DNA from: Leifsonia sp. SCN 70-46
GTDB lineage: Bacteria; Actinomycetota; Actinomycetes; Actinomycetales; Microbacteriaceae
Reading direction: 5' to 3'
DNA length: 64,000 nt
NCBI GenBank assembly: GCA_001725325.1
Contig: MEFY01000002.1
Location: forward strand, 2,297,559-2,361,558
In this document: one piece after another, positions 40,546 to 58,294 of the stretch
Layout: each line of letters opens with the position of its first letter
Numbering within the stretch: the first letter of the stretch is position 1
Position numbers and translations under genes: made by a program
Notes under the pieces: generated by a model
The model's input: only the letters and a program-made list of their open reading frames with translations
Told to the model about the DNA's origin: nothing
Databases searched by the model: none

Positions 40546-41774
40546 CGGCCCCTAGCCCGCTCACGAGCGCGGAGGGGACGACGGGCCGAGACGAATGGGT
40601 GCTCGACCCGGCCAAGCGGCACCTGAACCACGGATCGTACGGCGCCGTGCCGCGCCGCACGCTCGAGCACCAGGCCGCGCTCAAGCGGGAGCTCGAGCGC
40701 AACCCGCTGCGGTGGTTCGACTCCCTGCCCGAGCGCCTCGCCGCGGAGCGTGCGGCGCTCGCGCCCTTCCTCGGATCGCCCGCGCACGAGCTGGCCGTGA
40801 TCCCCAACGCGAGCGCGGGCGCCAGCACGGTGCTCGCGAGCACCCGCTTCGAGCCGGGCGACGAGATCCTCGTCACCGACCACGTCTACGGCGCGGTGCT
40901 CATGGCCGCCGAGCGGGCGGCCCGTCGCGACGGCGGGGTCGTGAGGGCCGTCGGCATCCCCCTCGCCGCAGGATCGGAGGAGACGCTCGAGCTCATCACG
41001 GGCGCGGTCGGCCCGCGCACCCGGATGCTCATCGTCGACCATGTCTCGTCGGCGACCGCCCGCGCGTTCCCTGTCGAGGAGCTCGTCGCCGCGCTGGAGG
41101 GATCCGGCGTCACCATCGTCGTGGACGGCGCGCACACGCCCGGCCTCCTCGACTCGCCCGCACGTGTCGCCGGCCGCTCGGACGGCGTCGTGTGGTTCGG
41201 CAACCTGCACAAGTTCGCGTCGGCGCCCCGCGCGGCCGCCGTGCTCGTGGCGCGCGGCGAGACCGCCGCCCGGCTGTACCCGCCCATCGACTCGTGGGGC
41301 GCGACGCTGGACTACCCGGAGCGGTTCGACCAGCAGGGCACGAACGACGTGACGGGCTTCCTGAGCGCCTCGTACGGCATCGCGGAGCTCGAGCGCCTCT
41401 TCGGCTGGCAGCGCATCCGCGACTACGCGGCGGACCTCGCCGCCTACGCGGCGTCGATCATTGCCCCCGCGCTCGAGGCGCTGCAGGATGTGCCGGCGCG
41501 CCCCCACGTGGGCATGGCCCAGCCCGCGCAGCCCCTGCTGCGCCTGCCGGACGGCATCGTCACCGACGGTGCGTCGCAACGTGTGCTCAAGAACCGGCTC
41601 TCGGCCGAGGCCGACGTGGAGGCGGGCATCATGGTCTGGCGCGGGCAGGGGTTCCTGCGTATCTCCGCCCACGCCTACAACGTCGCCGCGGACTACGAGC
41701 AGTTCGTCGAGCGCGGAATCCCGGTCATCGCGTCGATGGCACGTAGCGGCGCATCGCACTCGCCAGCACGCTGA
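40542..41774 (+). CDS. PLP-dependent class V aminotransferase (isopenicillin-N epimerase-like)
   Basis: HLNHGSYGAVPRRTLEHQAALKRELERNPLRWF; VVDGAHTPGLL; WFGNLHKFASAP (PLP Lys); GTG start at 40542 overlaps the GT stop. Confidence 0.9.
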   Translation: MTAPSPLTSAEGTTGRDEWVLDPAKRHLNHGSYGAVPRRTLEHQAALKRELERNPLRWFDSLPERLAAERAALAPFLGSPAHELAVIPNASAGASTVLASTRFEPGDEILVTDHVYGAVLMAAERAARRDGGVVRAVGIPLAAGSEETLELITGAVGPRTRMLIVDHVSSATARAFPVEELVAALEGSGVTIVVDGAHTPGLLDSPARVAGRSDGVVWFGNLHKFASAPRAAAVLVARGETAARLYPPIDSWGATLDYPERFDQQGTNDVTGFLSASYGIAELERLFGWQRIRDYAADLAAYAASIIAPALEALQDVPARPHVGMAQPAQPLLRLPDGIVTDGASQRVLKNRLSAEADVEAGIMVWRGQGFLRISAHAYNVAADYEQFVERGIPVIASMARSGASHSPAR

Positions 41775-44175
41775 ACCCCTCCGCGAGCTGGCCCTCGTAG
41801 CCGCTCGGCGTTCCGTCCCACATGCGCCAGTCGAGGCCCGACCCGAGCCCGCCGAACGAGGAGTCGTCGGCGATCGTCTCCGCGAGCGAGAACAGGAGCT
41901 CGTCCGCAGCGTCCGTGAGGCCCACCCGGTCGAAGGCGTCGACGAGCACGCGCGCACCGTGGTGCGAGCAGCCGCCCTGCTGGTAGCCGCCCATGGGCAG
42001 CCCGAACACGACGCCGCCGAGGTCGGACTCCGGGATGCGCCAGAGGTTGAGCGGGATCCCGTTGCGCAGGTCGTCCACGCCCGCCTCGCGCCAGTGCTCC
42101 CGCAGCCGCAGCATGATCGTGCGGGCCGTGGCCGGGTCGATGAGGTCCGTGCTGCAGGCGGCGCCCGTCACGAGCGAGAAGCCGAAGTCGTGCAGCTCGC
42201 CGTCGACGGAGCGCCAGCCGGCGATGAGGCCCGTCGCGGGGTTGAGGAAGGTCGGCAGGTACGCGGCGCGGATGCCGGCCGCCGCGGCATCGAGCCGGGC
42301 GGCGAGCCCGTGCTCGCCGAACGCGCGCAGGGCGGGCGCGAGCTCGGCCCACGCCTCGTAGAGCACGGCGTTGGCCCACGCGTCCTTCCAGCCGAACGAG
42401 ATGACGTCGGCCCACGCGGTGCTCCACTGGTGCTCGCCGCTCACGCCCCTGCGCAGGGTGGACTCCACGAGCCCGTCGCCGTCGACATCCCGCGCGAGCA
42501 TCGCCTCGACCTCCGCGAGGATCCGCGCACGGTGGCGGTCGAACCAGGCGCGGTCCGCCGTCCCCGTGAGGAAGCGCCCCAGCGCGACGAGCGTGTTGGC
42601 CGCCATGTGGACGTACTCGTCCTCGAGACGGTGGTTGCCGTGGGATGTCGCGCCGCTGCCGTAGCTCGGCGCCCCGTCGAGCCAGCGGCTCAACGACACC
42701 CCCACGAGGGCGAGCGGGCGGATACCGCCCACCTCCGCCGGCATGCCCGCGGCTATCGCCGAGATGTCGTTGAGGGTCGTCGTGCAGTGCATCGAGGCGC
42801 CGTTGTTCGAGTAGGTCGCGGTGTCCGACCGGAACGGGAGTGCCGTGAGGGCGTGGCGGGCGAGCATGCGGGCGACCGAGGGCGGGGCCGACGGCGACGG
42901 GGCGACGACCTGCGGCGTGCCCGCGACGAAGCTGACCGTCGCGGCGAAGTCCCCGGCGGGGAGCAGGTAGTCGCCGAACGCCGTCGGCGCCTCGCCGAGC
43001 TTGACCTCGAAGGTGTTCGTGTCGAGCGCCCGCACGGAGTCGCTGCGGTAGAGCACGTCGGGGGAGTCGCTCGACACCGAGAGGGTGCCGTGGCGCGGGA
43101 AGTGCCACAGCACCGGCCCGCGGAGCAGTCCCGTCTCACCCACGGTGACGAGCGGGCCCATGGCCGTGCTCGGCGTGACGCGGTTGTCGGTGGCGACGTG
43201 CCAGGCCGAGCTCGTCCAGGCCCGGTAGTCGCGGGACGCCGAGCGGCGGGCCTCGAGGAGGATGCGGTCGGGGAGCACCGTGAACCGGTAGCGGTAGCGC
43301 TGCCCCGCCGACGGCACATCCACGTCGTAGGTGACCGTGTTGCCGCGCACCGAGGTGGTGCCCTCGTAGTCGCTCGCAAGGAAGCCGAGGGGGCGGTCGC
43401 CGTCGGCGCGGGTCAGGCGCGGGCCCTGGGCGAGGTACTCCGCGTTCTGGTCGCGGAGCACGGGATAGACCCCCGACGGATAGACGCCGCTGCGCACGAT
43501 GTCCATGGAGCGGGGGAGCTGCAGCAGGTTGCGATCGGTGCGCCCACCGGCATCGTCGTCGATGCCGAGGTGGGACCACGCGGGGGAGCGCAGGCGGAAT
43601 CCCACGGCGAGGCTCGCGGTCGTGAACCGGACCTCGGAGCTGCGGTGCTCAGCCCTCACACCGTCGGGGAGGCCGTCGAGGTCGACGACGGAGACGTCGA
43701 GGTGCCCCTCGCGCCGGGGAGTCCACTCCGCGGGCGCCTCGCCCAGCGCCTCGACGGCCGTGTTGGCGAGGTTCCAGCCGGGCCACCAGCGGTCTGTGGT
43801 CGCCTCGCGCAGCTCGACGACGAGCGCCGTGGTCTGGCGCGCCAGCTCGAGCGCGTCCTGAGTCGCGGCCAGGCTGCCCGCACGCGCCCACCCCTCCTCG
43901 GAACCGGTCCAGCAGGTCGCCCGCGCGACGGAGTCCGACTCCTGGCCGCTAGCGCACTTGTGGTAGCCCGCGCCGGGCACCAGGCGCACGGTGTCGACCG
44001 TCATCGGCGTGTCGGAGAACACGGCCTTGAGGTGGATGATTCGCTCGGAAGGTGCGTCGTGCTCCTCGCTGTCAGGGCGCGCCCACACCGCCCTCGTGTG
44101 CACGCGCACGGTCGAGGCGGGCAGTGATTCCCACTCGGGAGTGGCGAGCGGATGGACGAAGAGATTGCTGGGCAT
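41725..44175 (-). CDS. Large (alpha/alpha)6-barrel-type glycoside hydrolase, substrate unknown
   Basis: 816 aa; C-terminal half with NDISAIAAG, LARDVDGDGLVESTLR, SFGWKDAWANAVLYEAWAEL, YLPTFLNPATGLIAGWRS, GGYQQGGCSHHGARVLVDAF resembles six-hairpin glycosidases; divergent from the sugar ABC operon. Confidence 0.7.
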   Translation of the reverse strand: MPSNLFVHPLATPEWESLPASTVRVHTRAVWARPDSEEHDAPSERIIHLKAVFSDTPMTVDTVRLVPGAGYHKCASGQESDSVARATCWTGSEEGWARAGSLAATQDALELARQTTALVVELREATTDRWWPGWNLANTAVEALGEAPAEWTPRREGHLDVSVVDLDGLPDGVRAEHRSSEVRFTTASLAVGFRLRSPAWSHLGIDDDAGGRTDRNLLQLPRSMDIVRSGVYPSGVYPVLRDQNAEYLAQGPRLTRADGDRPLGFLASDYEGTTSVRGNTVTYDVDVPSAGQRYRYRFTVLPDRILLEARRSASRDYRAWTSSAWHVATDNRVTPSTAMGPLVTVGETGLLRGPVLWHFPRHGTLSVSSDSPDVLYRSDSVRALDTNTFEVKLGEAPTAFGDYLLPAGDFAATVSFVAGTPQVVAPSPSAPPSVARMLARHALTALPFRSDTATYSNNGASMHCTTTLNDISAIAAGMPAEVGGIRPLALVGVSLSRWLDGAPSYGSGATSHGNHRLEDEYVHMAANTLVALGRFLTGTADRAWFDRHRARILAEVEAMLARDVDGDGLVESTLRRGVSGEHQWSTAWADVISFGWKDAWANAVLYEAWAELAPALRAFGEHGLAARLDAAAAGIRAAYLPTFLNPATGLIAGWRSVDGELHDFGFSLVTGAACSTDLIDPATARTIMLRLREHWREAGVDDLRNGIPLNLWRIPESDLGGVVFGLPMGGYQQGGCSHHGARVLVDAFDRVGLTDAADELLFSLAETIADDSSFGGLGSGLDWRMWDGTPSGYEGQLAEGFSVLASAMRRYVPSTR

Positions 44176-44194
44176 GGTTCACCTTTTTCCTCGC

Positions 44195-44224
44195 GTTGAC
44201 TGGTGTTCGAGACCTCACCTACAC
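44195..44224 (+). promoter_or_regulatory. Candidate sigma70-type promoter for the ABC/oxidoreductase operon
   Basis: TTGACT-18 bp-TACACT. Confidence 0.45.
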
Positions 44225-44240
44225 TGACCGAAAGCGTAGT

Positions 44241-44256
44241 GGAAAATCGATTGCGC
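44241..44256 (-). promoter_or_regulatory. Candidate LacI-family operator (site A)
   Basis: Minus-strand GCGCAATCGATTTTCC, 13/16 identical to site B (56094..56109). Confidence 0.6.
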
Positions 44257-44298
44257 AAAATCGCTCTCGGTGCTTGAATGGGTTTCCGCCAGTTCTCG

Positions 44299-44322
44299 AA
44301 TTGGTTAGTCCAAATACCAATT
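44299..44322. repeat. Inverted repeat in the divergent intergenic region
   Basis: AATTGGT-N10-ACCAATT, 46 bp upstream of the ABC substrate-binding protein gene. Confidence 0.5.
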
Positions 44323-44367
44323 GTGCCCCGCAATTGCGTATCTCAATGAGGAGATTAGGAATACACA

Positions 44368-45654
44368 GTGTTCACAGGACATCACATCAGGCGAGTCGCC
44401 TCGATCGGCCTCGCTGCCACCCTCGCCCTCTCGCTCGCCGCCTGCGCCGCCCCGGCCGCGCCTGCTGACGACGAGCCGGTCGAGCTCCGCATCACGTGGT
44501 GGGGCGGCGACTCCCGCCACGAGGTCACCAACGCCGCGATCGACCTCTTCGAGGAGGAGCACCCGAACATCACGGTGGTGCGCGACTTCGGCGGGTTCGA
44601 CGGCTACCTCGACAAGGTGACCACGCAGTATGCGGGCAAGAACTCGCCCGACGTCATCCAGCTGTACAACGACGTGCTCCGCGAGTTCTCGTCGCGCGGC
44701 CAGCTCTTCGACCTCAACGAGGCCGTCGCCGCGGGCAACCTGTCGCTCGACGGGTGGCCGCAGGACGTCATCGACATGAACACGATCGACGGATCCCTCA
44801 ACGCCCTCACCTTCGGCGTGAGCACCCACGCCTTCATCTTCGACGAGACGAAGTCCGCCGAGCTGGGTGTCGCGATCCCCGAGGCCGGGTACACGTGGGA
44901 CGACCTGGCCGACTACGCGACCGCGATCAGCAAGGCCTCGGGCGGCTCCACCTCCGGCGTCACCGACCTGTCGCAGGGCTACCAGGTGTTCGAGGTCTGG
45001 GCCAAGCAGAACGGCGAGGAGTTCCTCGACGCCGACGGCCTCGCCTTCACGCAGGGCACGCTCGAGGACTTCTGGCAGTACTGGGCCGACCTGCGTGCCG
45101 CGGGCGGTGCGACCGCTCCCGACGTGACGACGGAGTACTTCGGCACGCCGTACGACGCCGTCGTCGCCGGGGTCGCCACGTCGACGTTCCTCTTCGCGAA
45201 CCAGTACGCGGGGGTGCAGGCGAACACGCCCAACGCCCTCGCGATCGACCGGATGCCGTCCGAGGCCAAGAACCCCGGGCAGTACCTGCGCGCGGCCATG
45301 AACCTCGCGGTCTCCAGCCAGTCGAAGCACCCGCAGGAGGCTGCGATGCTCATCGACTTCCTGCTCAACAGCGAGGCGGCCAACGAGATCCTCGGCATCG
45401 ACCGCGGCCTGCCGAGCAACGGCAACGTGGTCGCCGCCGCCACCGCCAAGGTGGACGAGGTCACGGCCAAGGCGAACGCCATCATCGAGGCGGTCCGCAA
45501 GGACGGCGCGCCCGCCCCCGTGCCGGCGCCCACCGGTGCTGCGGCCGTCAACACGCTCTTCCAGGAGTTCGCACAGCAGGTGCAGTTCGGCCAGAAGAGC
45601 GTCAAGGATGCGGCGGCTGAGTTCATGGCCCAGGCCGCGTCGGAACTCGGCTAA
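44368..45654 (+). CDS. Sugar ABC transporter substrate-binding lipoprotein
   Basis: Lipobox LAATLALSLAACAAP; ELRITWWGGDSRHEVTNAAIDLFEEEHPNITV. Confidence 0.95.
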   Translation: MFTGHHIRRVASIGLAATLALSLAACAAPAAPADDEPVELRITWWGGDSRHEVTNAAIDLFEEEHPNITVVRDFGGFDGYLDKVTTQYAGKNSPDVIQLYNDVLREFSSRGQLFDLNEAVAAGNLSLDGWPQDVIDMNTIDGSLNALTFGVSTHAFIFDETKSAELGVAIPEAGYTWDDLADYATAISKASGGSTSGVTDLSQGYQVFEVWAKQNGEEFLDADGLAFTQGTLEDFWQYWADLRAAGGATAPDVTTEYFGTPYDAVVAGVATSTFLFANQYAGVQANTPNALAIDRMPSEAKNPGQYLRAAMNLAVSSQSKHPQEAAMLIDFLLNSEAANEILGIDRGLPSNGNVVAAATAKVDEVTAKANAIIEAVRKDGAPAPVPAPTGAAAVNTLFQEFAQQVQFGQKSVKDAAAEFMAQAASELG

Positions 45655-45666
45655 CGAAAGAAGCGC

Positions 45667-46659
45667 ATGTCACTCACGCACGCACGCGACACCCGGGGTG
45701 TCGACGCGGGCAGTGAAGCGCAGAGCGGGCGGGGGGTCGTCACGGCCCCCCGCCCCCGCACTTCACGCTCCCTCAGGAACGCCGTCTGGCGGGACAGGAT
45801 CGCCCCCTACCTGTTCCTCGCCCCGTGGCTCATCGGGTTCTTCGTCATCACGCTCGGCCCGATGCTCTACTCGCTCTACCTGTCGTTCACGAACTTCAGC
45901 CTCCTGGGGGAGCCGAGCTGGGTCGGTCTCGACAACTACGTCAAGATGTTCACGAACGACCCCAAGTACCTCGACTCCGTGCGCGTCACGCTCGTGTACG
46001 TCTTCGTCTCGGTGCCGCTCCAGCTCGCCTTCGCGCTCGCGCTCGCGCTGCTGCTCAACCGCGGGCTGCGCGGGCTGCCGATCTACCGCTCGATCTACTA
46101 CCTGCCGTCGCTCATCGGCGCGAGCGTCGCCGTCGCGGTGCTGTGGCGCCAGATGTTCGGCCGAGGCGGCCTCATCAACCAGGTGCTCGAGGTCTTCGGC
46201 ATCCAGGGCCAGAGCTGGATCGGCAACCCCGACACCGCGCTCGGCACCCTCATCATCCTCAACGTCTGGACCTTCGGCTCGCCCATGGTGATCTTCCTCG
46301 CCGCCCTGCGGCAGATCCCCGGGTACCTCTACGAGGCCGCGGCGGTCGACGGCATCAACCGGCGCCAGGCCTTCCGGCACATCACGCTGCCGATGCTCAC
46401 GCCCGTGGTGCTGTTCAACCTCGTGCTGCAGCTGATCGGCGCCTTCCAGGCGTTCACGCCGGCCTTCGTGGTGTCGGGCGGCACGGGGGGTCCCGTCAAC
46501 TCGACGCTCTTCTACACGCTGTACCTGTACCAGAAGGGCTTCGCGAACTTCCAGATGGGCTACGCGAGCGCGATGGCGTGGGTCCTGTTCATCGGCATCG
46601 CCATCGTGACTGCCATCAATTTCTGGTTCTCGAAGTACTGGGTGCACTATGACGACTGA
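45667..46659 (+). CDS. Sugar ABC transporter permease (MalF-type)
   Basis: APYLFLAPWLIGFFVITLGPMLYSLYLSFTNF; YEAAAVDGINRRQAFRHITLPMLTPV (EAA motif). Confidence 0.95.
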   Translation: MSLTHARDTRGVDAGSEAQSGRGVVTAPRPRTSRSLRNAVWRDRIAPYLFLAPWLIGFFVITLGPMLYSLYLSFTNFSLLGEPSWVGLDNYVKMFTNDPKYLDSVRVTLVYVFVSVPLQLAFALALALLLNRGLRGLPIYRSIYYLPSLIGASVAVAVLWRQMFGRGGLINQVLEVFGIQGQSWIGNPDTALGTLIILNVWTFGSPMVIFLAALRQIPGYLYEAAAVDGINRRQAFRHITLPMLTPVVLFNLVLQLIGAFQAFTPAFVVSGGTGGPVNSTLFYTLYLYQKGFANFQMGYASAMAWVLFIGIAIVTAINFWFSKYWVHYDD

Positions 46660-47542
46660 CACGACGACCATCGATCACGACACCTCGACCGGAGTCCGCT
46701 TCGGCCGCAAGCGCACGGCCAAGCGCAGCGCGCTGAGCCACTTCCTGCTGGTGGGCTTTGGGGTGCTCATGCTCTACCCGCTCATCTGGATGCTGGGCGC
46801 CTCCTTCAAGGAGAGCGAGGACATCTTCACGCAGATCGCGCCCTGGCCCGATCCGGCGACTATCGAGAACTACGTGCGGGGCTGGGCCGGCTCCGGCGTC
46901 GGGTTCGGCACGTACTTCGTCAACTCGACGATCGTCGCCGCGCTGTCGGTGGTGGGCAACCTGCTGTCGTGCTCCCTCGCGGCGTACGCGTTCGCCCGCA
47001 TGAGCTTCCGCTTCCGCACCGTGTTCTTCGCGTGCATGATGGCGACGCTCATGATGCCGCACCACGTGCTGCTCGTGCCCCAGTACATCCTGTTCTCCAA
47101 CCTCGGCTGGGTGAACAGCTTCCTGCCCCTCGTCACGCCCAAGTTCCTCGCGGTCGATGCGTTCTTCATCTTCCTCATGGTCCAGTTCATGCGGGCCCTG
47201 CCCACCGAGCTCGACCAGGCGGCCAAGATCGACGGCGCCGGTCCGTGGCAGACCTATTGGCGGATCATCCTCCCGCTCACGGTCCCCGCTCTCGCCACCT
47301 CCGCGATCTTCACGTTCATCTGGACGTGGAACGACTTCCTCTCACCCATGCTCTACCTGCAGGATCCCGGCAAGTACACGGTTCCCCTCGGCCTCAACGC
47401 GTTCCTCGACGCGAGCGGCGAGAGCGCGTGGGGCCCGATGTTCGCGATGGCCGTGCTCTCGCTCGGCCCGCTGTTCGGGTTCTTCCTCGCGGGGCAGAGA
47501 TACCTCACCACCGGCATCGCCACGACTGGCCTGAAAGGCTGA
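46649..47542 (+). CDS. Sugar ABC transporter permease (MalG-type)
   Basis: LYPLIWMLGASFKESEDIF; ELDQAAKIDGAGPWQTYWRIILPLTVPA (EAA motif). Confidence 0.95.
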   Translation: MTTDTTTIDHDTSTGVRFGRKRTAKRSALSHFLLVGFGVLMLYPLIWMLGASFKESEDIFTQIAPWPDPATIENYVRGWAGSGVGFGTYFVNSTIVAALSVVGNLLSCSLAAYAFARMSFRFRTVFFACMMATLMMPHHVLLVPQYILFSNLGWVNSFLPLVTPKFLAVDAFFIFLMVQFMRALPTELDQAAKIDGAGPWQTYWRIILPLTVPALATSAIFTFIWTWNDFLSPMLYLQDPGKYTVPLGLNAFLDASGESAWGPMFAMAVLSLGPLFGFFLAGQRYLTTGIATTGLKG

Positions 47543-47550
47543 ACACACCC

Positions 47551-48654
47551 ATGAAGAAAGCACGGATCGGCGTCGTCGGCGCCGGTGGAATCGGCGCGGC
47601 TGCGCACCTTCCCGCGGTCACGGGACTGCCCGACATCGCGGAGCTCACGGCGATCGTCGACCTGGACCCCGACCGCCTCGCGACGGCGGGCGCGACCTTC
47701 GGCTGCGAGAACCTCTACTCGGACCTCGCCGTGATGCTCGAGGAGCAGAAGCCCGACATCGTCGTGGTCGCGACCCCGCCCCACCTGCACGAGCCGCTCG
47801 CCATCCAGGCGATGCGCGCGGGCTCGTGGGTGTTCTGCGAGAAGCCCCTCACCGGGTCGCTGGAGTCGGCGGACCGCATCCTCGCGGCGGAGGAGGAGAC
47901 GGGACAGTGGTGCGTGACCGTCTCCCAGTTCCGCTACGCGGGCGGCTCGCGCCAGGTGCGCGACGACCTGGCTTCAGGACGGTGGGGCCGACCCCTCGTG
48001 GGCGTGGCGCACACCTCCTGGTACCGCGGACCCGAGTACTGGGACATCCCGTGGCGCGGCAAGTTCGCCACGGAGTTCGCCGGGGCGACGACGACCCAGG
48101 CCCACCACGCGATCGACCTGCTGCTCTGGCTCATGGGCGGGCAGTGGTTGAGCGTGTCGGGCATCGCCGACACCCTCTCCCGTCCCATCGAGGTCGAGGA
48201 TGCGAGCGTCGCAACCGTGCGGTTCGACGGCGGTGCCGTCGCCACCATGCTGTCGACCGTGCTGAGCCACAACCAGGCGACCACCCTCCAGGTGATGGCC
48301 GAGCGGGCGACCGTGAACCTCGACACCCTGTACATGCCGCTGCTCGAGGAGTGGTCGGTGCGGCAGGTCGATGCCGAGGGCACCACCCAGCTCGTCACCG
48401 ACTGGTCGAAGCCCGAGGAGCCCGTGCAGGCCCACCGCGCGCAGCTCGCGAACATCATCGCCCACTGGAGCGCGGGGGAGCAGCCCGAGCTCACGACGGC
48501 CGAGGCGCGCTCGACCCTCGAGTTTCTCACCGCCCTCTACAAGTCGTCGCACGTCGGCGCCCCCGTGGCACGCGGCGAGATCGTTCCGGGAGACCCCTTC
48601 TACACCGCCCTCGACGCCGGCGGACCGACACGAAAGGCACGCCACCATGGCTGA
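47551..48654 (+). CDS. Gfo/Idh/MocA family oxidoreductase
   Basis: RIGVVGAGGIGAAAHLPAV; FCEKPLTGS; HAIDLLLWLMGG. Confidence 0.94.
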   Translation: MKKARIGVVGAGGIGAAAHLPAVTGLPDIAELTAIVDLDPDRLATAGATFGCENLYSDLAVMLEEQKPDIVVVATPPHLHEPLAIQAMRAGSWVFCEKPLTGSLESADRILAAEEETGQWCVTVSQFRYAGGSRQVRDDLASGRWGRPLVGVAHTSWYRGPEYWDIPWRGKFATEFAGATTTQAHHAIDLLLWLMGGQWLSVSGIADTLSRPIEVEDASVATVRFDGGAVATMLSTVLSHNQATTLQVMAERATVNLDTLYMPLLEEWSVRQVDAEGTTQLVTDWSKPEEPVQAHRAQLANIIAHWSAGEQPELTTAEARSTLEFLTALYKSSHVGAPVARGEIVPGDPFYTALDAGGPTRKARHHG

Positions 48655-49528: not shown

Positions 49529-50538
49529 CGCCGAGGCGGGGCGGTCGAGCCGCGCACGACGAGGTGCGCGCGCGGCTCGGAGACGACCTCGTCGCGCATG
49601 GGGGAGCCGGCGAGGTGGTCGAGCAGCATCGATGCCGCGATGTTCCCCGCGGCGTGCATGGGCATCGCCACCGCCGTGATCGACGGCGTGACGTAGCTCG
49701 CCTGCCAGGTGTCGTGGATGGTGACGATCGACAGCTCGTCGGGAACGCGGACACCCGCGGCGAGGGCGGCGCTCAGCGCGCCGATCGAGGCGTTGACGCT
49801 CGCCACGAGCACCGCGGTGGGACGGCCGGGACGCCCGAGGAGCGTCGTCATGGCCTCGGATCCCGCCGGCGCCTCCCAGCCCGCCGGCACGATCCACTCC
49901 TCGCGCGCGGGCGTTCCACCCTCCGCCATGAGGGAGCGGAAGGCCGTGAGGCGCCGCGACGCCGCATCGTGGCGCGCGGCGCCCGCGATGAAGGCGATGT
50001 CGGCGTGCCCGAGCGACCGGAGGTGCTCGAGCGCGATGCGCACGCTCTCCGCGTCGTCCATCGCGACCGAGCCGACGTGCCCCTCGATGGTGGTGTTGAA
50101 GAGCACCACGGGGATGTCGACCTGGATGGCGCGCAGGAGCGCCTCGTCGCTGTAGTGCTCGCTGCGCTGCAGGATGGCACCGTCGACGCGGCCGTTCCCG
50201 AGCACGCGGGCGAGGGAGGTGGAGTCCTCCTCCGGCGGATCGAGCTGCGCGACGAACACCGCGGTGGCGCTCGGCGAGCACGCCTCCTGGACCCCGGCCT
50301 GCAGGCTTCCGAAGATGGCGTTGTTGACCTCGGGCACGACGAGGGCGATCGCGCCGGCGCGCGCCAGCCGCAGGGCCCGGGCGCGGTGGTCGGGCACGTA
50401 CGCGAGCTGCTCGGCCGCGGCGAAGACACGCGTGCGCGTGTCGGCGTTGATCCGGGCGCCCTCGTCGTGGTTGAGGACGCGCGAGGCGACCGACACCGAC
50501 ACCTTCGCCAGTTCGGCGACATCCTTGAGGCGGGCCAC
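49525..50538 (-). CDS. LacI family transcriptional regulator
   Basis: ARLKDVAELAKVSVSVASRVLNHDEGARINADTRTRVFAAAEQLAYVPDHRARAL; GTG start at 50538 likely, longer ORF to 50592. Confidence 0.94.
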   Translation of the reverse strand: MARLKDVAELAKVSVSVASRVLNHDEGARINADTRTRVFAAAEQLAYVPDHRARALRLARAGAIALVVPEVNNAIFGSLQAGVQEACSPSATAVFVAQLDPPEEDSTSLARVLGNGRVDGAILQRSEHYSDEALLRAIQVDIPVVLFNTTIEGHVGSVAMDDAESVRIALEHLRSLGHADIAFIAGAARHDAASRRLTAFRSLMAEGGTPAREEWIVPAGWEAPAGSEAMTTLLGRPGRPTAVLVASVNASIGALSAALAAGVRVPDELSIVTIHDTWQASYVTPSITAVAMPMHAAGNIAASMLLDHLAGSPMRDEVVSEPRAHLVVRGSTAPPRR

Positions 50539-50572
50539 GACGCCGATGCTACTCGATGACGCGCCCCGCGCC

Positions 50573-51937
50573 TCAGATGGCACTTCCGCCACGCACGAGC
50601 CGGCTCTTCAGGTCCCCGACGTCCAGCGCGCGGTAGGCGACGTCAGACTCGAGCGACATGACGGTCGCGAGCCCGGCCGCGTGGCCGTACTCGAAGCACT
50701 GCGCCGTGACCCGGGCGGAGGCGAGCGCCTCGTGCTCGGCGCCGAGGCAGCGGCCCGCGACGATGATGTTCTCGCCGCGCTCGGGCACGAGCGCCGAGTA
50801 CGGCACCAGGTAGTAGTCGTCGAGGAGCCAGTGGAGCCTGGGTCGGGGCCCGTCGTGCAGCTCGATGGGCCACGGGGAGCGCACGATCCCGTCGTCGGGC
50901 TTCGCGCACGCGACGACCTGGTCGTTCGTGAGGGGCGCGACCGACGCGATGCTCCGGGTCTGGCGGACCCCCGCCTCCACACCCGTGTCGACGACGAAGC
51001 TGCGGTCGAGGCCGTCGACCGCGCGGCGCAGGAAGTCGGCGTAGCCGCGCACCTGCTTGCGGCCGAGCAGCTCGGCGATCGTGAAGTCCTCGGGGTCGAT
51101 CACGTTGAGCATGCGCCCGTCGGTGTCGGCGAGCCGGGTCGCGTTGACGAGCAGCTCGCCCTCGCGCGGCGTCGCGAAGACCCAGATCTTCTCGCGCGGC
51201 AGGTCGTACCCGCGCCCGCGCTCCTCGACGATGCGCTGCGTGAGCTCCGTGCTGCAGATCGTGTCCTCGCCGTAGTCCGCCCAGAACGCCGCGGTGTCGA
51301 CATTGCCGAGGCGGAAGAACATCGTCGGGTTCTGGATGCGGCCGCCGTCGCCGAACGTGCAGCGCCAGCCGGCACGGGCGACGACCGCGGCATCACCCGA
51401 GGCGTCGATGGTGCGGCGCGCGTGGATCGCGATGCTCCCCGCGTTCGACTCGACGACGACGCCGCGGTGCACGTCGCCGTCCATCACGACGCCCGTGATC
51501 ACGCTGTGGAAGAGGATGCGCACCCCCGCGTTGAACATCAGGTCGTCGGCCACCTCCCGCCAGACGAGCGGGTCGTGGGCGACCGTCCAGGTCTTCCCGT
51601 AGCGCTGCGGCGCCGTGAGGCCGCCACGGGCCTCGAGCCCGGCACGGAAGCGCTCGGCGAAGCCGAACACGGCCTGCTCGGGCTCCCGGGAGTCGTCGCT
51701 CGCGAGGTAGAGCCCGCAGATCGTCCCGCTCATCCCCGCGACCGCCGCACCGCCGGCGAAGCCGTAGCGCTCGACGATGATGACGCTGAGGCCGTTCTCG
51801 GCGCACACCGTCGCGGCGGCGACCCCGGCCGCTCCCGCGCCGACCACGACGACGTCCACCTCGGCGAGCACGGGCAGGCCGTGGTCGACGGGGACGGTGT
51901 TCCCGAGCATCCACCGCTCGTGCAGGAGCCCGCTCAT
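50573..51937 (-). CDS. FAD-dependent oxidoreductase
   Basis: VDVVVVGAGAAGVAAATVCAENGLSVIIVERYGFAGGAAVAGMSG; RRTIDASGDAAVVARAG; IIVAGRCLGAEHEALASARV. Confidence 0.9.
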   Translation of the reverse strand: MSGLLHERWMLGNTVPVDHGLPVLAEVDVVVVGAGAAGVAAATVCAENGLSVIIVERYGFAGGAAVAGMSGTICGLYLASDDSREPEQAVFGFAERFRAGLEARGGLTAPQRYGKTWTVAHDPLVWREVADDLMFNAGVRILFHSVITGVVMDGDVHRGVVVESNAGSIAIHARRTIDASGDAAVVARAGWRCTFGDGGRIQNPTMFFRLGNVDTAAFWADYGEDTICSTELTQRIVEERGRGYDLPREKIWVFATPREGELLVNATRLADTDGRMLNVIDPEDFTIAELLGRKQVRGYADFLRRAVDGLDRSFVVDTGVEAGVRQTRSIASVAPLTNDQVVACAKPDDGIVRSPWPIELHDGPRPRLHWLLDDYYLVPYSALVPERGENIIVAGRCLGAEHEALASARVTAQCFEYGHAAGLATVMSLESDVAYRALDVGDLKSRLVRGGSAI

Positions 51938-52704
51938 CGGCCCGTGAAGCGCGGCGCGCGCTTCTCGACGAACGCGCTCACACCCTCGCGCCCGTCCTCG
52001 CTCGCGAACAGGGACATGAGCAGCTCCGTCTCGCGGCCGTAGCCCGACTCGGTGCCGGACGCCGCGACGGCGCTCTTGCCCGCCGCGAGGGCGAGCGGCG
52101 CTCGGGCGAGGAGGTCGGCGACGATGCTCTCGACCTCGTCGTCGAGCTCGTCGGCGGCGACGAGCCGGGAGACGATCCCGAGCTCGTGGGCGCGTCGCGC
52201 GTCGAACCCCGCGCCGGTGAGCACGGCGTGGCGGGCCCGGGCAGCGCCGATGATGCTCGTGAGCCGCTGGGTGCCGCCCCAGCCGGGGATGAGGCCGAGG
52301 GAGATCTCCGGGAGGGCGAACCGGCTGCGGTCGCTCGCGATCACGATGTCGGACGACAGGACGAGCTCGAACCCGCCACCCATCGCGACCCCGTCCACCG
52401 CGGCCACGACGATCGCGGGGGAGGAGGCGAGCGACCGGCACACGGCGTTGGCGCGCTCGGTGAACTCGAGCAGGGTCGCGGTGTCGCCCGCCGACTCCGA
52501 GTAGAGGGCGATGTCGGCGCCGGCGCTGAAGTAGCCGGGCTCGCCCGAGAGCACGATGACGGTCGACCCGGCGCGCTCCGCCTCCTCGACCGCCGAGGCG
52601 ATGCCGTCGAGCATCCCGGCCGTTATCGCGTTGCGCTTGGCCGCGCGCGCCAGCTGCACGCGTGTGACGCGCCCCGCTGTGGAGACGACGAGGTCGTCGC
52701 TCAC
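51934..52704 (-). CDS. Enoyl-CoA hydratase/isomerase family protein
   Basis: LSGEPGYFSAGADI; AAVDGVAMGGGFELVLSSDIVIASDRSRFALPEISLGLIPGWGGTQRL; GTG start at 52704. Confidence 0.93.
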   Translation of the reverse strand: MSDDLVVSTAGRVTRVQLARAAKRNAITAGMLDGIASAVEEAERAGSTVIVLSGEPGYFSAGADIALYSESAGDTATLLEFTERANAVCRSLASSPAIVVAAVDGVAMGGGFELVLSSDIVIASDRSRFALPEISLGLIPGWGGTQRLTSIIGAARARHAVLTGAGFDARRAHELGIVSRLVAADELDDEVESIVADLLARAPLALAAGKSAVAASGTESGYGRETELLMSLFASEDGREGVSAFVEKRAPRFTGR

Positions 52705-53873
52705 GCCATCACCCCCGAGGCGAGCATCGTGTCGATGGCCGCGGAGTCGTATCCGAGCTCGGCGAGCACCTCGCGCGTCTGCTCGCCGAGGGCGGGGGGA
52801 GGGGTCCTGATGCCAGGGCGCCGCCCGTCGTACGTGACGGCGTGTTTGAGCACCCGCACGGTGCCGGCCTGCTCGTGGACGTACTCGTCGAAGCTGTCGT
52901 TGTGGAGCACCTGGGGGTCGGCGATCACCTCGTCGTAGTCCTGCACGGGGGCGAACCAGACCCGCTCGGCGGTGAAGACCTCGCTCCACTCGGCAGTCGT
53001 GCGCGTCGCGAGGTGCTCGACGATGCGGGCGTTGATGAGGTCGCGCGCCCCGAACTCGTCGTCGGGCCCGAACCCCGCGAACCAGTCGTCGCCGAACACG
53101 CGCGCGAGCGTCTCGGGGCTCGTGAGCGAGATGCACAGGTAGCCGTCGGCCGTGGCGAAGACGCCGTAGGGCGCCTTGTAGAAGCCCGACGAGATCCCCG
53201 TGGCGGAGCGCTGCGGCTCGAAGCCGTTGAGCGCGTAGGTGAGGGGCTCGATCTGCAGGTCGAGGGCGGCGCTCAACAGGTTGCTCTCGACCCGCACGCC
53301 CACTCCCGTGCGCTCGCGTCCGTGGAGCGCCGCGAGGATGCCGACGGCGCCGAGCACCGCGCCGTGCTGGTCCACGACGCACGCGCCGACCGGGGTCGGG
53401 GGCACGCCGGCGGGACCCGTGGCCTGCGCGAGGCCCGAGAGCGCCTGGATGAGCACGTCCTGTCCGGGCCGGTCGCGGTAGGGCCCGTCGGAGCCGTAGC
53501 CGGAGAGCGAGGTGTACACGAGCCTCGGGTTGAGCTCGTGCAGGGTGTCCCAGCCAAGCCCGAGCTTCTCCATCACGCCCGGGCGGAAGCTCTCGATGAG
53601 CACGTCCGCGTCTTTGAGGAGCTCGCGCAGCGGCCCCGCGGCGTCGGGGTGCTTGAGGTCGACGACGATGCTCCTCACGTTGCGGTTGCCGAGCGCGAAG
53701 AAGGGGCTCTCGCCGCCGCCCAGGAAGCGCCCGGGTGCCGTCCACCCGCGCTCGAACGCGCCCCCGAAGGGCTCGACCTTGATGACGTCCGCGCCGAGGT
53801 CGGCGAGGATCTGGCTGGCCGAGGGACCCTGGAGGAAGTGGGTGAAGCTGATGACCCTGATGCCGGAGAGCAT
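52701..53873 (-). CDS. CaiB/BaiF family CoA transferase
   Basis: GIRVISFTHFLQGPSASQILADLGADVIKVEPF; NRNVRSIVVDLKHPDA; GYGSDGPYRDRPGQDVLIQALSGL. Confidence 0.94.
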   Translation of the reverse strand: MLSGIRVISFTHFLQGPSASQILADLGADVIKVEPFGGAFERGWTAPGRFLGGGESPFFALGNRNVRSIVVDLKHPDAAGPLRELLKDADVLIESFRPGVMEKLGLGWDTLHELNPRLVYTSLSGYGSDGPYRDRPGQDVLIQALSGLAQATGPAGVPPTPVGACVVDQHGAVLGAVGILAALHGRERTGVGVRVESNLLSAALDLQIEPLTYALNGFEPQRSATGISSGFYKAPYGVFATADGYLCISLTSPETLARVFGDDWFAGFGPDDEFGARDLINARIVEHLATRTTAEWSEVFTAERVWFAPVQDYDEVIADPQVLHNDSFDEYVHEQAGTVRVLKHAVTYDGRRPGIRTPPPALGEQTREVLAELGYDSAAIDTMLASGVMA

Positions 53874-53905
53874 GAGGCGTGCCTTTCGTAGTGGTGGGCG
53901 TCGGC

Positions 53906-54961
53906 CTAGAAGATGCCCGTGCGGACCTGGAACTTGCTCGGCTTGCCGTAGAGCGGCTTGCCCTGCATGACCCAGTCGGCGACCCAGCGCAGCATGGTGT
54001 CGACCGTGACGACGGGGTTGCCGAGCAGTTCGGCCGCGGCATCGCAGTTGACGAAGAGCACGTGATCGCTCTCCTCGCCCTCGAAGACGGGCTCGACGCC
54101 CATGATGCGGCCGAGCTCGACCGCGACGCGCCGCACGCTCACGCACTCCGGCCCGCCGATGTTGATGGCGGTCGCGGGGGTGTCGCAGTGGCGCAGCAGC
54201 CTCGCGAAGTGGTTGAGCGCGTCACCCTGCCACTGGATGTTCACGTTGCCCGTCGCGAGGGGGATGGGGGTGCCGTCCCTGACCCAGGTCGCGATCTCCT
54301 GCAGCACCCCGTAGCGCATGTCGATCGCGTAGACGAAGCGCACGATGCGTCCCGGCGTGCCGTGCTTGCCCGAGAAGTACTGGAACGTCCGTTCGCGGCC
54401 CACCACGGAGTTCGCGTACTCGCCGGGACGGGCGAGGGGCGGCACATCCTCGGTCACGCCCCCGTGGCGCGGGTCGGACCAGGGGTAGACGTGGATCGTG
54501 GAGAGCGCGACGATTCGGCTGTCGCGGAACGTGTCGGCGACATAGGAGGGCACGAGCGTGTTCATGGCCCACAGGAAGTCCTCGCGGCCCCGGAAGTCGA
54601 ACTTCAGCCCCGCCATGTAGATGACGTTGGGGAGGCGGGGGAGCCCCTCGACGGCGTCGCGGTCGAGCAGGTCGGCCTTGATCGCCTCGACGCCGTGGCC
54701 CTCGAGCCACTCCTGCGACCCCTCGTCGGAGAACCGGGCGACGCCCACCACGCGCTTGTCGGGGGCCGCGCGCTTGATGAGGCGTGCGAGGTTCATCCCC
54801 ATCTTGCCCGCGACGCCGAGGATGATGATGTCGCCCTCGATCGCGGCGAGGTCGCGCACGGTCTCCGGGGTCGGACGGCTCATGAACTCGTCGAGTGCGT
54901 CCACGTCGGCGAACGACGCGGGGAGGTCGTCGCGGGTGAGCAGCGCGGTCTGGGTGGTCAT
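53906..54961 (-). CDS. NAD-dependent epimerase/dehydratase family protein (atypical SDR)
   Basis: DIIILGVAGKMGMNLARLI; STIHVYPWSDPRHGGVTEDVPPLARPGEYANSVVGRER; INIGGPECVSVRRVAVELGRIMG. Confidence 0.85.
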   Translation of the reverse strand: MTTQTALLTRDDLPASFADVDALDEFMSRPTPETVRDLAAIEGDIIILGVAGKMGMNLARLIKRAAPDKRVVGVARFSDEGSQEWLEGHGVEAIKADLLDRDAVEGLPRLPNVIYMAGLKFDFRGREDFLWAMNTLVPSYVADTFRDSRIVALSTIHVYPWSDPRHGGVTEDVPPLARPGEYANSVVGRERTFQYFSGKHGTPGRIVRFVYAIDMRYGVLQEIATWVRDGTPIPLATGNVNIQWQGDALNHFARLLRHCDTPATAINIGGPECVSVRRVAVELGRIMGVEPVFEGEESDHVLFVNCDAAAELLGNPVVTVDTMLRWVADWVMQGKPLYGKPSKFQVRTGIF

Positions 54962-54986
54962 TGTGCGGGATTCCTCTTTCGTGGGG

Positions 54987-56042
54987 TCAGGAGAGCCAGG
55001 CCGACAGGCCGGCGGTGACGAACTCGTCGTCGTGGAGGTCGGGGTGCGATCGGTACACGCGCTCGATCTCCTCGAGCTGGCCCGGGGAGAGCGTCTCGGC
55101 CGGATCGAGGCACCACGTGCCCTCGACGAGGCCCTGCCGGCGCAGCACCTCGAGGCATCCGGGGATGCATCCGGCGAAATCGTTGATCGCGTCGTAGATG
55201 GCCTCGTTGCAGTCGGTCACGCGCGAGTCGAGGGCGAGGAGCGCGGCCGGCACGTCGCGGCCCTGGGCCGCGCGGAGCTGGTCGAACTGCGCGACCGCCG
55301 CCGAGGTCCACACGCTCCAGTGCCCCAGCAGGCCGCCGCGCACGTGCACGGTCACGACCTCACCGTCACGCGGGATCGCGAAGGGCTGCAGCAGGTCGAG
55401 CACGATGTGGTCGTCGTTGCCCGTGTAGAGGGCGATGCGCTCCTCGGCGCGGGCGTCGACCACCGCGCGGACGATGTCGAGCGTCCGGTAGCGGTTGAAG
55501 GGGGCCATCTTGATCGCCACGACCTCGGGGATCGTCGCGAACTCCCGCCAGAACTCGTACGAGAGGTGGAATCCGCCGACCTCGGGCAGCAGCGCGAAGC
55601 CGATGAGGGGCATGACCCCGGCGACGGCACGGCAGTGCTCGAGGATCTCGCGCTCGTCGCGCCCCTTCCACCCGGCGACGTTGAGGATGACGGCGTCGTA
55701 GCCCAGCGTCCGCGCCGTCCGGGCCTCCTGCAGCGCCTGCGGGGTGTCGCCGACGACCCCGGCGACGAGCGCGACGGGGCGGTCGGTCCACTCCCGCGCG
55801 GCCTGCGCCGCGATCTCGAGCACCGGCTCGAAGAGCCCGTGCTGCCGGATGGCGAACTGCGTCGTGTGCACGCCCACCGCGAGACCGCCCGCCCCCGCAT
55901 CGAGGTAGTAGCGGCTGAGGGCGCGCTGGCGGACGGGGTCGAGCCGGCGGTCGGCCGTGAGGGCGAGAGGATGCGCCGGGATCACCGTGCCGCTCCGCAG
56001 CACCTCGAGGGCGGTCGAAGGCTGGTCTGACGTCGTCGTCAT
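54987..56042 (-). CDS. Dihydrodipicolinate synthase (DapA)-family aldolase/lyase
   Basis: TVIPAHPLALTADRRLDPVRQRALSRYYLDAGAGGLAVGVHTTQF; VVAIKMAPFNRYRTLDIV; ATG at 56042 has an AAGAGAGG RBS; longest ORF extends to 56075. Confidence 0.85.
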   Translation of the reverse strand: MTTTSDQPSTALEVLRSGTVIPAHPLALTADRRLDPVRQRALSRYYLDAGAGGLAVGVHTTQFAIRQHGLFEPVLEIAAQAAREWTDRPVALVAGVVGDTPQALQEARTARTLGYDAVILNVAGWKGRDEREILEHCRAVAGVMPLIGFALLPEVGGFHLSYEFWREFATIPEVVAIKMAPFNRYRTLDIVRAVVDARAEERIALYTGNDDHIVLDLLQPFAIPRDGEVVTVHVRGGLLGHWSVWTSAAVAQFDQLRAAQGRDVPAALLALDSRVTDCNEAIYDAINDFAGCIPGCLEVLRRQGLVEGTWCLDPAETLSPGQLEEIERVYRSHPDLHDDEFVTAGLSAWLS

Positions 56043-56093
56043 CGGGGCTGTTCCTCTCTTGCTGCTAGCGATCAAAACACAGAAATGTGCTTA

Positions 56094-56109
56094 GCGCAAC
56101 CGATTGTGC
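56094..56109 (+). promoter_or_regulatory. Candidate LacI-family operator (site B)
   Basis: GCGCAACCGATTGTGC, imperfect palindrome GCGCAA-CCGA-TTGTGC, upstream of the minus-strand dapA-like operon. Confidence 0.6.
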
Positions 56110-56139
56110 AAAAGCAGCGGACGCCAGGGGGCCGTGAGG

Positions 56140-56844
56140 TCAGGGGCGGTGGACGGGTCGGTCGACGTGCGCTGCCATGAGTGCCCGGGCGAGCTCGAGA
56201 TCGCCCTGCTGCAGGGCCTCGAGGATGCCGCGGTGCTCGTTCAGCAGGCTCAGCGGATCGCCCGGCGCGATGCCGCAGCTGCCCCACGCGTCGACCCAGA
56301 GCTCGTGCGCGGAGCGCTGCAGCTCGGTGAGCAGCGGGTTGTCGGTCATCCGCCCGAGGAGCGACTCGAAGCGCACGTCGAGGCTGCCGCTCTCGCGCGT
56401 CTCGGCGTCCATGCCGTTCTCGATCGAGTCGAGGAGCGAGACGAGCGGCTGCAGGTCGGCGCCCCCGCGGTGCACGAGCATGAGCACGCGGTCCTCGATC
56501 GAGGCGCGCACCTCGACGAGGTGGTTCAGGAACCGCTCGTCGACGGGCTCGAGCGCCCGCAGCAGGGGCGTGAGGGGGCTCGTGGAGGGATCGAGCACGA
56601 AGCTCCCCGAGTTGCGCCGGATCTCGATGCGGCCCGTGCTCTCGAGCGAGCGCAACGCCGCCCGGAGGGAGACGCGGCTCACGCCCAGGCGCTCGGCGAG
56701 GTCGCGCTCGGCGGGCAGGCGGTCGCCGGGCTCCATGGTCTCGACGAGCGCGCGCAGCTGCGCGAGCACCGCCTCGTAGACGTCGACGTGGGGGATCGGG
56801 ACGATCGGGAACGCCTCCCGCTCGGTGCTGCCGCCCGCGCCCAT
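56140..56844 (-). CDS. FadR-subfamily GntR transcriptional regulator
   Basis: VYEAVLAQLRALVETMEPGDRLPAERDLAERLGVSRVSLRAALRSLESTGRIEIRRNSGSFV; FCD-like C-terminal domain; TGATG overlap with the preceding gene. Confidence 0.92.
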   Translation of the reverse strand: MGAGGSTEREAFPIVPIPHVDVYEAVLAQLRALVETMEPGDRLPAERDLAERLGVSRVSLRAALRSLESTGRIEIRRNSGSFVLDPSTSPLTPLLRALEPVDERFLNHLVEVRASIEDRVLMLVHRGGADLQPLVSLLDSIENGMDAETRESGSLDVRFESLLGRMTDNPLLTELQRSAHELWVDAWGSCGIAPGDPLSLLNEHRGILEALQQGDLELARALMAAHVDRPVHRP

Positions 56845-58256
56845 CACATCCCCCTCGTCGCGGCGGCGACCGTGAGCGGCTCGAGGCCGCCGAGGTCCAG
56901 CTCGCCCGCGAACCCGAAGGGCGCGGCGAGCAACGAGTCGAGAGCGAGGCGGCCGTCGCGCAGCCGCAGGCGGACGTGGCCGTCCTCCTGCCGCTCGTAC
57001 AGGTCGGGGTGGGCCGCGATCGCGACGTCCTCCATGTCCGGCTGCAGCGGCGCGAGCTGGCCGAAGTAGTGGTGGCCGTTGCGCTCGATGTGCGTGAGGC
57101 CCATGGCGTGCGCGACGACGAGATCCTGGGCGGTCGTGAGCGGGGGCACCGTGGAGAGGTCCTCGGCGGTCATGAGCGACCCGGCACGCCGGTGCTGCAC
57201 GAGCGCCGCGTTCGCGAGCCCCCGGAAGACGCCCTTGCAGCCCTTGTACGTGCCGCCCGCGTAGCCGAGGTCGAGCGCGTCGCGCACGGTCGTCACGTCC
57301 GCATCCGATTCGTCGATGATGACGGACACGTCGTCGCCGAGCTCCGCGAGCGCCTCGGCGGCCTGCGGCCCGAGCGCGATCGACCGGTGGAAGGGCTGCT
57401 CCACGGCCACGAGGGCGGTGCGGAGGACGGGTGAGAGCCGGGCATCCGCGAACAGGCCCCGCACCCACTCCACGAGGTGCTGCGCGGAGTGCATCGACTC
57501 GTTTCCGTCGATCGTGAATCGGCCGTCCACGCCCACCGCCGCCAGCACGTCGAGGATGCCGTGCAGGCGGGGGATGTCGTCGTCGAGCCGGCCCGCCGTC
57601 TTGATCTTGAAGTGCGTCACGCCGTAGCGCGCGATCGTCGCGGCCAGGCTCACGGGCAGCCCGTCGCCGGGGGCGTCCACGACCTCGGAGTCCGTGAGGG
57701 GGTCGGAGAGGCCCACCGTGTGGCGCACGGAGATGGCGTTCTCCGCCGGCGGCGGGGCGAGCACGCTGCCCGCGAGCTCGGGGTGGATGCGCGCCGCGTC
57801 GAACCCCAGTGAGCCGTCGTGCAGCGCGACGAGGAACGGACGCCCGACGAGGCGGCAGGAGGCGTCGATGATCGCGCGCTCGACGAGCGCCGAGCCGAGC
57901 CCGGCGAGGAGCCCGGGGACGCCGTGCGCCGACGCCCAGGAGTCCTGCCTGGCCTGGAGGCCCCACCAGAGCTCGAACGCCGTCGCGCCCTCCGCGCCGC
58001 GGGCTGCTCCGACCGCGTGCTCGACCGCCGCGACCATGTCGGCGATGTCATCCACGAAGAGGGAGTCGGGGTCTTTCGTGAACCACTTGGGCGGGAGGTG
58101 CTCCGAGGCCCATCCCCGCGCGGAGGTGCTCCCGTCCGTCAGGGCGACCTCCACGACGACGTGGGGTGCCGCGGTCATCTCGGCGATGCCGTAGCGGAAG
58201 GGGATGCGGGTGCGCACGTGCGTCACATGCGCGCGCACGTCGGTGATCGTCAACAC
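56844..58256 (-). CDS. Mandelate racemase/muconate-lactonizing enzyme family protein (enolase superfamily)
   Basis: HFKIKTAGRLDDD (KxK), FTIDGNES, VAVEQPFH, VIIDESDAD metal-ligand-like positions. Confidence 0.88.
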   Translation of the reverse strand: MLTITDVRAHVTHVRTRIPFRYGIAEMTAAPHVVVEVALTDGSTSARGWASEHLPPKWFTKDPDSLFVDDIADMVAAVEHAVGAARGAEGATAFELWWGLQARQDSWASAHGVPGLLAGLGSALVERAIIDASCRLVGRPFLVALHDGSLGFDAARIHPELAGSVLAPPPAENAISVRHTVGLSDPLTDSEVVDAPGDGLPVSLAATIARYGVTHFKIKTAGRLDDDIPRLHGILDVLAAVGVDGRFTIDGNESMHSAQHLVEWVRGLFADARLSPVLRTALVAVEQPFHRSIALGPQAAEALAELGDDVSVIIDESDADVTTVRDALDLGYAGGTYKGCKGVFRGLANAALVQHRRAGSLMTAEDLSTVPPLTTAQDLVVAHAMGLTHIERNGHHYFGQLAPLQPDMEDVAIAAHPDLYERQEDGHVRLRLRDGRLALDSLLAAPFGFAGELDLGGLEPLTVAAATRGM

Positions 58257-58268
58257 GTCGTAGTCCTC

Positions 58269-58294
58269 GTTTTGGTATGTGGTCCTACCAAAAC
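58269..58294. promoter_or_regulatory. Candidate FadR/GntR operator upstream of the MR/MLE-gntR operon
   Basis: Perfect 9-bp arms GTTTTGGTA-N8-TACCAAAAC; contains the FadR-type core TGGTCCTACCA (TGGT-N3-ACCA) at 58280..58290. Confidence 0.75.

Follow-up and report, generated by a model that had tools for sequence, protein, structure and literature searches.

Can a run of genes that places a sugar importer and a glycosidase-like protein beside enzymes of coenzyme A (CoA) ester metabolism work as one catabolic unit and, if so, on which substrate? The question is raised by a locus at positions 41725–58256 of the 64,000-nucleotide stretch of DNA analysed here (the window), which comes from Leifsonia sp. 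SCN 70-46 (contig MEFY01000002.1). A preliminary description of this DNA had proposed that a glycoside front end and a CoA-dependent back end form a single catabolic unit. As a whole this interpretation is partly supported: gene calling with Pfam annotation finds 13 genes where 12 had been counted, all of the gene types named are present (by Pfam or, for two proteins with no Pfam match, by predicted folds), and the evidence that the locus acts as one unit is stronger than had been claimed. The host, a soil or water actinobacterium, has a jointly controlled block that appears to import an acid-bearing sugar conjugate and to degrade it via CoA. Our favoured reading, which we hold at about even confidence, is that the locus is a regulon for the import and degradation of an acidic glycoside or short oligosaccharide that most likely contains a hexuronic-acid-type unit.

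Two predicted operators and a colinear gene set

The strongest evidence for one regulon is the presence, at both halves of the locus, of two candidate operators that occur nowhere else in the genome, both of which emerged from a comparison of intergenic regions. The palindrome TGSAMAAWCGRTTGCGCW has exactly two matches at ≤2 mismatches in the whole 3.12-Mb genome: TGGAAAATCGATTGCGCA (44240–44257, plus strand), in the divergent promoter region between the gene of an 816-aa glycosidase-like protein (41725–44175, minus strand) and that of the binding protein of an ATP-binding cassette (ABC) importer (44368–45654, plus strand), and TGCACAATCGGTTGCGCT (56093–56110, minus strand), upstream of the dapA-like gene (54987–56042, minus strand). 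The palindrome TTGGTATKTGGWCYWACCAA also has exactly two matches, at ≤3 mismatches: TTGGTATTTGGACTAACCAA (44301–44320, minus strand), again between the 816-aa and binding-protein genes, and TTGGTATGTGGTCCTACCAA (58272–58291, plus strand), upstream of a minus-strand pair encoding an enolase-superfamily enzyme (56844–58256) and a GntR/FCD regulator (56140–56844). Within the window, a free palindrome scan with central symmetry returned no site. Part of the material for the two patterns came from the window, Salinibacterium and G679 (a genome from another family of the order), which leaves the other genomes as an independent test. TGSAMAAWCGRTTGCGCW lies at the same promoters in the genome G058, Homoserinibacter and Salinibacterium; in Rhodococcus, Pseudonocardia, Streptomyces and Glaciihabitans it precedes dapA or caiB. 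A single match turned up in 1.28 Mb of control loci. The palindrome is absent around the locus of the marine actinobacterium PHSC20C1, which has no LacI orthologue (the best LacI relative in that genome is 39% identical). Similarly, Salinibacterium has TTGGTATKTGGWCYWACCAA at both positions, and the loci of G058, Homoserinibacter and G679, all of which lack GntR, have no copy of it. Because site presence and absence track the regulator in these relatives, TGSAMAAWCGRTTGCGCW is probably the operator of the LacI-family regulator of the locus and TTGGTATKTGGWCYWACCAA that of GntR, whose weak NCBIfam matches include NanR and UxuR. We are highly confident that both halves form a single regulon, in which LacI and GntR would keep both halves repressed until a pathway intermediate appears.

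The arrangement of the genes is as expected for such a unit. On the plus strand, the binding protein (SBP_bac_1, with a lipoprotein-type N-terminus) is followed by two sugar permeases (BPD_transp_1; 45667–46659 and 46649–47542), a Gfo/Idh/MocA oxidoreductase (47551–48654) and a DUF6807 (PmoA-like) protein (48647–49528). The locus has no ABC ATPase gene, and the importer is assumed to use a shared one. The minus-strand order is enolase, GntR, DapA, an atypical extended short-chain dehydrogenase/reductase (SDR, Epimerase-type; 53906–54961), a class III (CaiB/BaiF) CoA transferase (52701–53873), a crotonase-fold enoyl-CoA hydratase (ECH_1; 51934–52704), a flavin adenine dinucleotide (FAD)-dependent oxidoreductase (FAD_oxidored, PF12831; 50573–51937) and LacI (49525–50538), convergent with the DUF6807 gene. 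LacI had been taken for the first gene of this operon; it is the final one. The enolase and GntR genes, upstream on the same strand as dapA, are joined by a start/stop overlap, and the CaiB, crotonase and FAD oxidoreductase genes overlap one another by a few bases, as expected for an operon.

The set is also conserved. Relatives were found with the DapA-like protein as query, and loci were compared by homology mapping. In four other Microbacteriaceae (Salinibacterium soli, PHSC20C1, Homoserinibacter gongjuensis and G058) the set is colinear, with enolase (and, in some, GntR) and then DapA-SDR-CaiB-crotonase-FAD-LacI facing DUF6807-Gfo/Idh-permeases-binding protein. Conservation of the gene neighbourhood in other genera, which had been proposed as a check, thus argues against a chance assembly, and the outcome named as refuting the proposal, with the two halves independent in most relatives and never together, was not seen: they co-occur in five Microbacteriaceae, which together with the common operators bears out the claim of one catabolic unit. 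G679 keeps the enolase-to-LacI block and DUF6807-Gfo/Idh, with a heparinase-II/III-like lyase and other genes in place of the ABC and 816-aa genes. Among 200 genomes of the family, the 816-aa gene was found only in the window's genome and G058, and among 397 of the phylum only in the former; the three further full-locus genomes tested all have it too. It thus occurs only in the five complete-locus genomes (orthologues 59–75% identical) and adjoins the locus in four, lying ~0.9 Mb away in PHSC20C1. Three genomes of the same genus lack the DapA, enolase and 816-aa genes, so the distribution of the locus is patchy.

Could the locus nevertheless be two unrelated, adjacent pathways, one for the uptake of a sugar glycoside (41725–49528) and one for an organic acid (49525–58256)? 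In other bacteria the CoA half occurs with a major facilitator superfamily (MFS) transporter or an NMT1-type ABC importer, and Gfo/Idh-DUF6807 occurs alone; the unit is therefore modular and not obligate. The pTC2 plasmid of Paenarthrobacter aurescens TC1 (L128) carries Gfo/Idh, DUF6807, an ABC importer and LacI with no CoA half, and so the front end does exist as a module of its own. However, two unrelated pathways would have to be reconciled with two different genome-unique operators that bridge the halves, with colinearity in five lineages, and with the retention of DUF6807-Gfo/Idh in G679 despite the loss of the ABC and glycosidase genes. We therefore regard this alternative as improbable.

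The CoA step and the SDR-DapA pair

The CoA step is integral to the pathway, because a clade of DapA-like proteins coincides with CoA genes in all 11 cases and because the CoA transferase of two loci belongs to an unrelated class. At least 11 of 90 DapA-like proteins sit with a CoA transferase, a crotonase and an FAD oxidoreductase (the relatives being the best 80 among the matches listed, and the number of CoA-type loci a lower bound), and these 11 form one clade (SH-aLRT 99) in a tree of a 61-row subset that included the motif columns. In two alphaproteobacteria (L036 and L099) a class I CoA transferase occupies the position of the class III enzyme, and the crotonase has lost its first catalytic Glu. 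The window's CaiB matches CoA_transf_3 at 329 bits, and the PGQD motif with the catalytic Asp is kept in 9/9 aligned CaiB sequences; its crotonase, like the other actinobacterial members, has both catalytic Glu (motifs GGGFEL and LPE). Carnitine-type pathways also pair a CoA transferase with a crotonase, but the CaiB of the locus resembles the glutarate/HMG and formyl/oxalate types more closely and the remaining genes are unrelated.

A diagnostic change in the active site marks the DapA-like enzymes of the CoA-type loci. The DapA-like protein, of the class I aldolase superfamily, matches the dihydrodipicolinate synthase (DHDPS) Pfam family weakly and keeps the Schiff-base Lys178 (90/90 relatives) and the Thr-Thr pyruvate-binding motif (T61 in 90/90, T60 in 89/90). 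The position of DHDPS Tyr133 is Ala or Ser in 11/11 CoA-type enzymes and Tyr in 79/79 others; across the motif (GFALLPEVGGFH in the former, GFYLQPAVGG in the latter), Ala/Ser, Leu and Glu stand in place of the Tyr, Gln and small residue that all 79 others have. The SDR keeps its catalytic Tyr (86/86) and has lost the Lys of YxxxK throughout its family (0/86), with Val in 11 sequences, those of CoA type, and Cys in 75. Since the SDR Lys and the DapA Tyr are both replaced, the chemistry of the pair probably differs from textbook SDR oxidation and from a DHDPS-type aldol reaction. The order of steps first suggested (oxidation, CoA activation, hydration and aldol cleavage) may be taken as one conjectural sequence.

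The 470-aa enolase-superfamily protein has neither a Pfam match nor a close solved relative. Its predicted model (pLDDT 88) is a TIM barrel that matches enolase-superfamily structures with TM-scores up to 0.75, and K217 and K219 (the KxK motif), D250, E286, D315/E316 and K338 are invariant in 14 sequences; two plasmid rows were left out of the alignment for structure prediction. From residue spacing, it probably belongs to a muconate-lactonizing enzyme (MLE)-like subgroup.

An SDR, an enolase and a DapA-like enzyme would also be found together if the locus simply belonged to the known oxidative hexuronate pathway, with uronate dehydrogenase (Udh), galactarolactone cycloisomerase (Gci) and KdgD. 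We take these enzymes to be, respectively, an extended SDR, an MLE-type enolase and a DapA-like protein, the three superfamilies in common with the locus. In Agrobacterium, the three act in series on a sugar acid (PMC6353982), and by analogy the locus may work in a like manner. However, membership fails on several counts: the KdgD model TIGR03249 scores 17.3 bits against a cut-off of 374, the SDR catalytic Lys is absent in 86/86 relatives, the enolase has no close solved relative, and that pathway has no step for a CoA transferase, crotonase or FAD enzyme. The trio of the locus are thus remote homologues, with a Lys-less SDR and a DapA from a Tyr-less sub-clade, to which three further enzymes are added, and we consider membership of the known pathway very improbable.

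Evidence bearing on the substrate

The front end suggests that a conjugate enters the cell intact. Sequence searches of Pfam, NCBIfam and the PDB (the last with the single sequence and with a profile) found no relative of the 816-aa protein, and by sequence it matches no CAZy-type family. Its AlphaFold model (pLDDT 70.9) is closest to (alpha/alpha)6 glycosidases and phosphorylases of GH15, GH63, GH94, GH78 and GH116 type, with Foldseek E-values down to 2e-12 and TM-scores of only 0.3–0.4, and at the level of fold we predict it to be a glycosidase; the names first given to this protein and to the enolase are thus backed by predicted folds. Homology to a glycosyl hydrolase of R. etli was considered and rejected: none was found, and the R. 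etli protein is a GH39. By inspection of N-termini, the binding protein has a lipoprotein-type signal, and the 816-aa protein, Gfo/Idh and DUF6807 have none. Because the 816-aa enzyme lacks a signal peptide, cleavage of the conjugate probably follows its import, the reverse of the order first proposed. The Gfo/Idh/MocA protein scores far under the cut-offs of the NCBIfam models for IolG and for levoglucosan and UDP-GlcNAc dehydrogenases; across the locus, such models gave enzyme names only by matches far under cut-off.

The partner genes of the relatives favour a sugar-acid substrate. The CoA-type loci of Glaciihabitans and Streptomyces endocoffeicus carry DUF2264 proteins (46% identity between the two) with matches to solved beta-D-glucuronic acid dehydratases, and a study of a B. 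caccae enzyme proposed the whole DUF2264 family (formerly GH154) to be uronate dehydratases (PMC12269599). Since the front end can be exchanged for DUF2264 or, as in G679, for a heparinase-II/III-like lyase, a uronic-acid-type substrate is indicated. In R. etli, a relative of the enolase lies beside the GH39 protein and an IolB-like isomerase, and relatives of the FAD oxidoreductase adjoin IlvD-type or enolase-type dehydratases, of the kind that acts on sugar acids. Unlike the glycosaminoglycan and uronate loci with DUF2264 dehydratases (PMC12269599), with which the Glaciihabitans and S. endocoffeicus loci share homologous enzymes, the window carries an (alpha/alpha)6 enzyme that is unclassified and has no DUF2264 match; GH88 is absent, and the back end is CoA-dependent. 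On balance, the chances that the substrate is an acidic sugar are about even, and a hexuronic-acid-type unit within it seems plausible.

CoA transferases and crotonases are typical of acyl and alicyclic acid degradation, and the substrate could instead be a non-sugar acid, aromatic or alicyclic, bound as a glycoside or glycosyl ester. In that case the front end would strip the sugar, CaiB would activate the aglycone acid, and the crotonase, FAD oxidoreductase, enolase-type isomerase, SDR and DapA-like lyase would degrade it. Consistent with this, the MFS partners in Rhodococcus and Pseudonocardia best match, though under cut-off, the aromatic acid/H+ symport subfamily, and the CoA loci of the alphaproteobacteria are found with NMT1-type binding proteins. 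On the other hand, the DUF2264, heparinase-II/III-like and GH39 partners indicate uronates, the FAD relatives are paired with IlvD-type dehydratases, and neither a ring-cleaving oxygenase nor an aromatic-CoA enzyme is annotated among the locus genes. We judge a non-sugar acid to be rather unlikely, if much less so than two separate pathways.

Several points weigh against a hexuronic-acid-type substrate as well. The clues to it all come from relatives and none from the window; a search of the genome found no GH88 or GH105 unsaturated-uronyl hydrolase; every enzyme scores well short of the cut-offs of NCBIfam models for characterised uronate enzymes; a CoA thioester step would be unusual for uronates; the glycosidase prediction derives from a fold match of low TM-score; and the resemblance of the MFS partners to aromatic-acid symporters belongs here too. 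For an acidic conjugate we propose the following scheme. A CUT1-type ABC importer would bring the intact conjugate into the cell, where Gfo/Idh, DUF6807 and the cytoplasmic (alpha/alpha)6 enzyme would oxidise and/or cleave it to free a carboxylic acid. The enolase-superfamily enzyme could act on this carboxylate by isomerisation or beta-elimination, the SDR-DapA pair and the FAD oxidoreductase would reshape and cleave the carbon skeleton, and a carboxylate intermediate would reach central metabolism as a CoA thioester through the CoA transferase and crotonase. In its specific form, namely a route in Actinobacteria and Alphaproteobacteria by which a hexuronate-type unit passes through the MLE-like enolase, Lys-less SDR and Tyr-less DapA and then, as a CoA ester, through the crotonase and FAD oxidoreductase, we put this forward tentatively, at less than even confidence.

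The locus joins a known kind, that of sugar-acid and glycoside catabolic regulons, and its claim to be a new type of pathway is plausible but unproven. As the preliminary description had stated, no described pathway joins its genes: open-access literature searches for the whole set, and for the keyword DUF2264, returned nothing, and DUF6807 has only a passing mention there. The locus is thus a compact candidate for an undescribed catabolic pathway, with two predicted operators and a rare, unannotated glycosidase-like family; it gives a genomic context to DUF6807, the 470-aa enolase group and the DapA-SDR pair, and GFALLPEVGGFH is a marker by which CoA-type loci may be recognised in any genome. 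If the substrate is indeed a sugar acid, bacteria would degrade some sugar acids through CoA esters, a type of pathway not described for uronates or glycosides and one missed by current annotation pipelines.

Related operons and neighbouring genes

A widespread uncharacterised operon (L015, L043-L112 and other loci) encodes an SDR, a GNAT protein, a DapA-like protein and an NMT1-type ABC importer, often with a long enolase homologue, an amidase or an Fe-S serine dehydratase. Its representatives in Bradyrhizobium, Xenophilus and Hydrogenophaga share with the window the DapA-like, SDR and often the enolase families, but they lack the CoA transferase, crotonase and FAD oxidoreductase, carry GFYLQPAVGG in place of GFALLPEVGGFH, and have Cys where the SDR of the window has Val. 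Other rearrangements are seen on plasmids. In Rhodococcus koreensis (L123), CaiB, crotonase, FAD oxidoreductase, LacI and MFS genes stand with an IlvD-type dehydratase, with no DapA or SDR annotation close by, so that the CoA module is rewired in yet another way. The plasmid of the haloarchaeon Halomontanus rarus (L127) has relatives of the SDR and the enolase close to sulfatases and a weak heparinase-II/III match, a further pointer to a sugar acid; an AMP-binding protein of the acyl-CoA ligase type is also present. DUF993, for which we found no mention in the open-access literature, recurs with Gfo/Idh and xylose-isomerase-like TIM-barrel genes (L043:463-5080, L131:9664-14208 and L032:2743-6085), and in L043 and L131 it adjoins relatives of the 470-aa enolase.

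Two minor observations concern the loci themselves. In H. gongjuensis (L035), several locus genes are split between frames; many neighbours are affected, and sequencing error is more likely than decay. Finally, a class-V aminotransferase gene (40542–41774, plus strand) adjoins the 816-aa gene in the window, and in each of the five lineages an orthologue is next to the locus or, where the 816-aa gene has moved away, next to that gene. It was left out of the locus because orthologues occur in locus-free genomes of the same genus and, in G679, on another contig.

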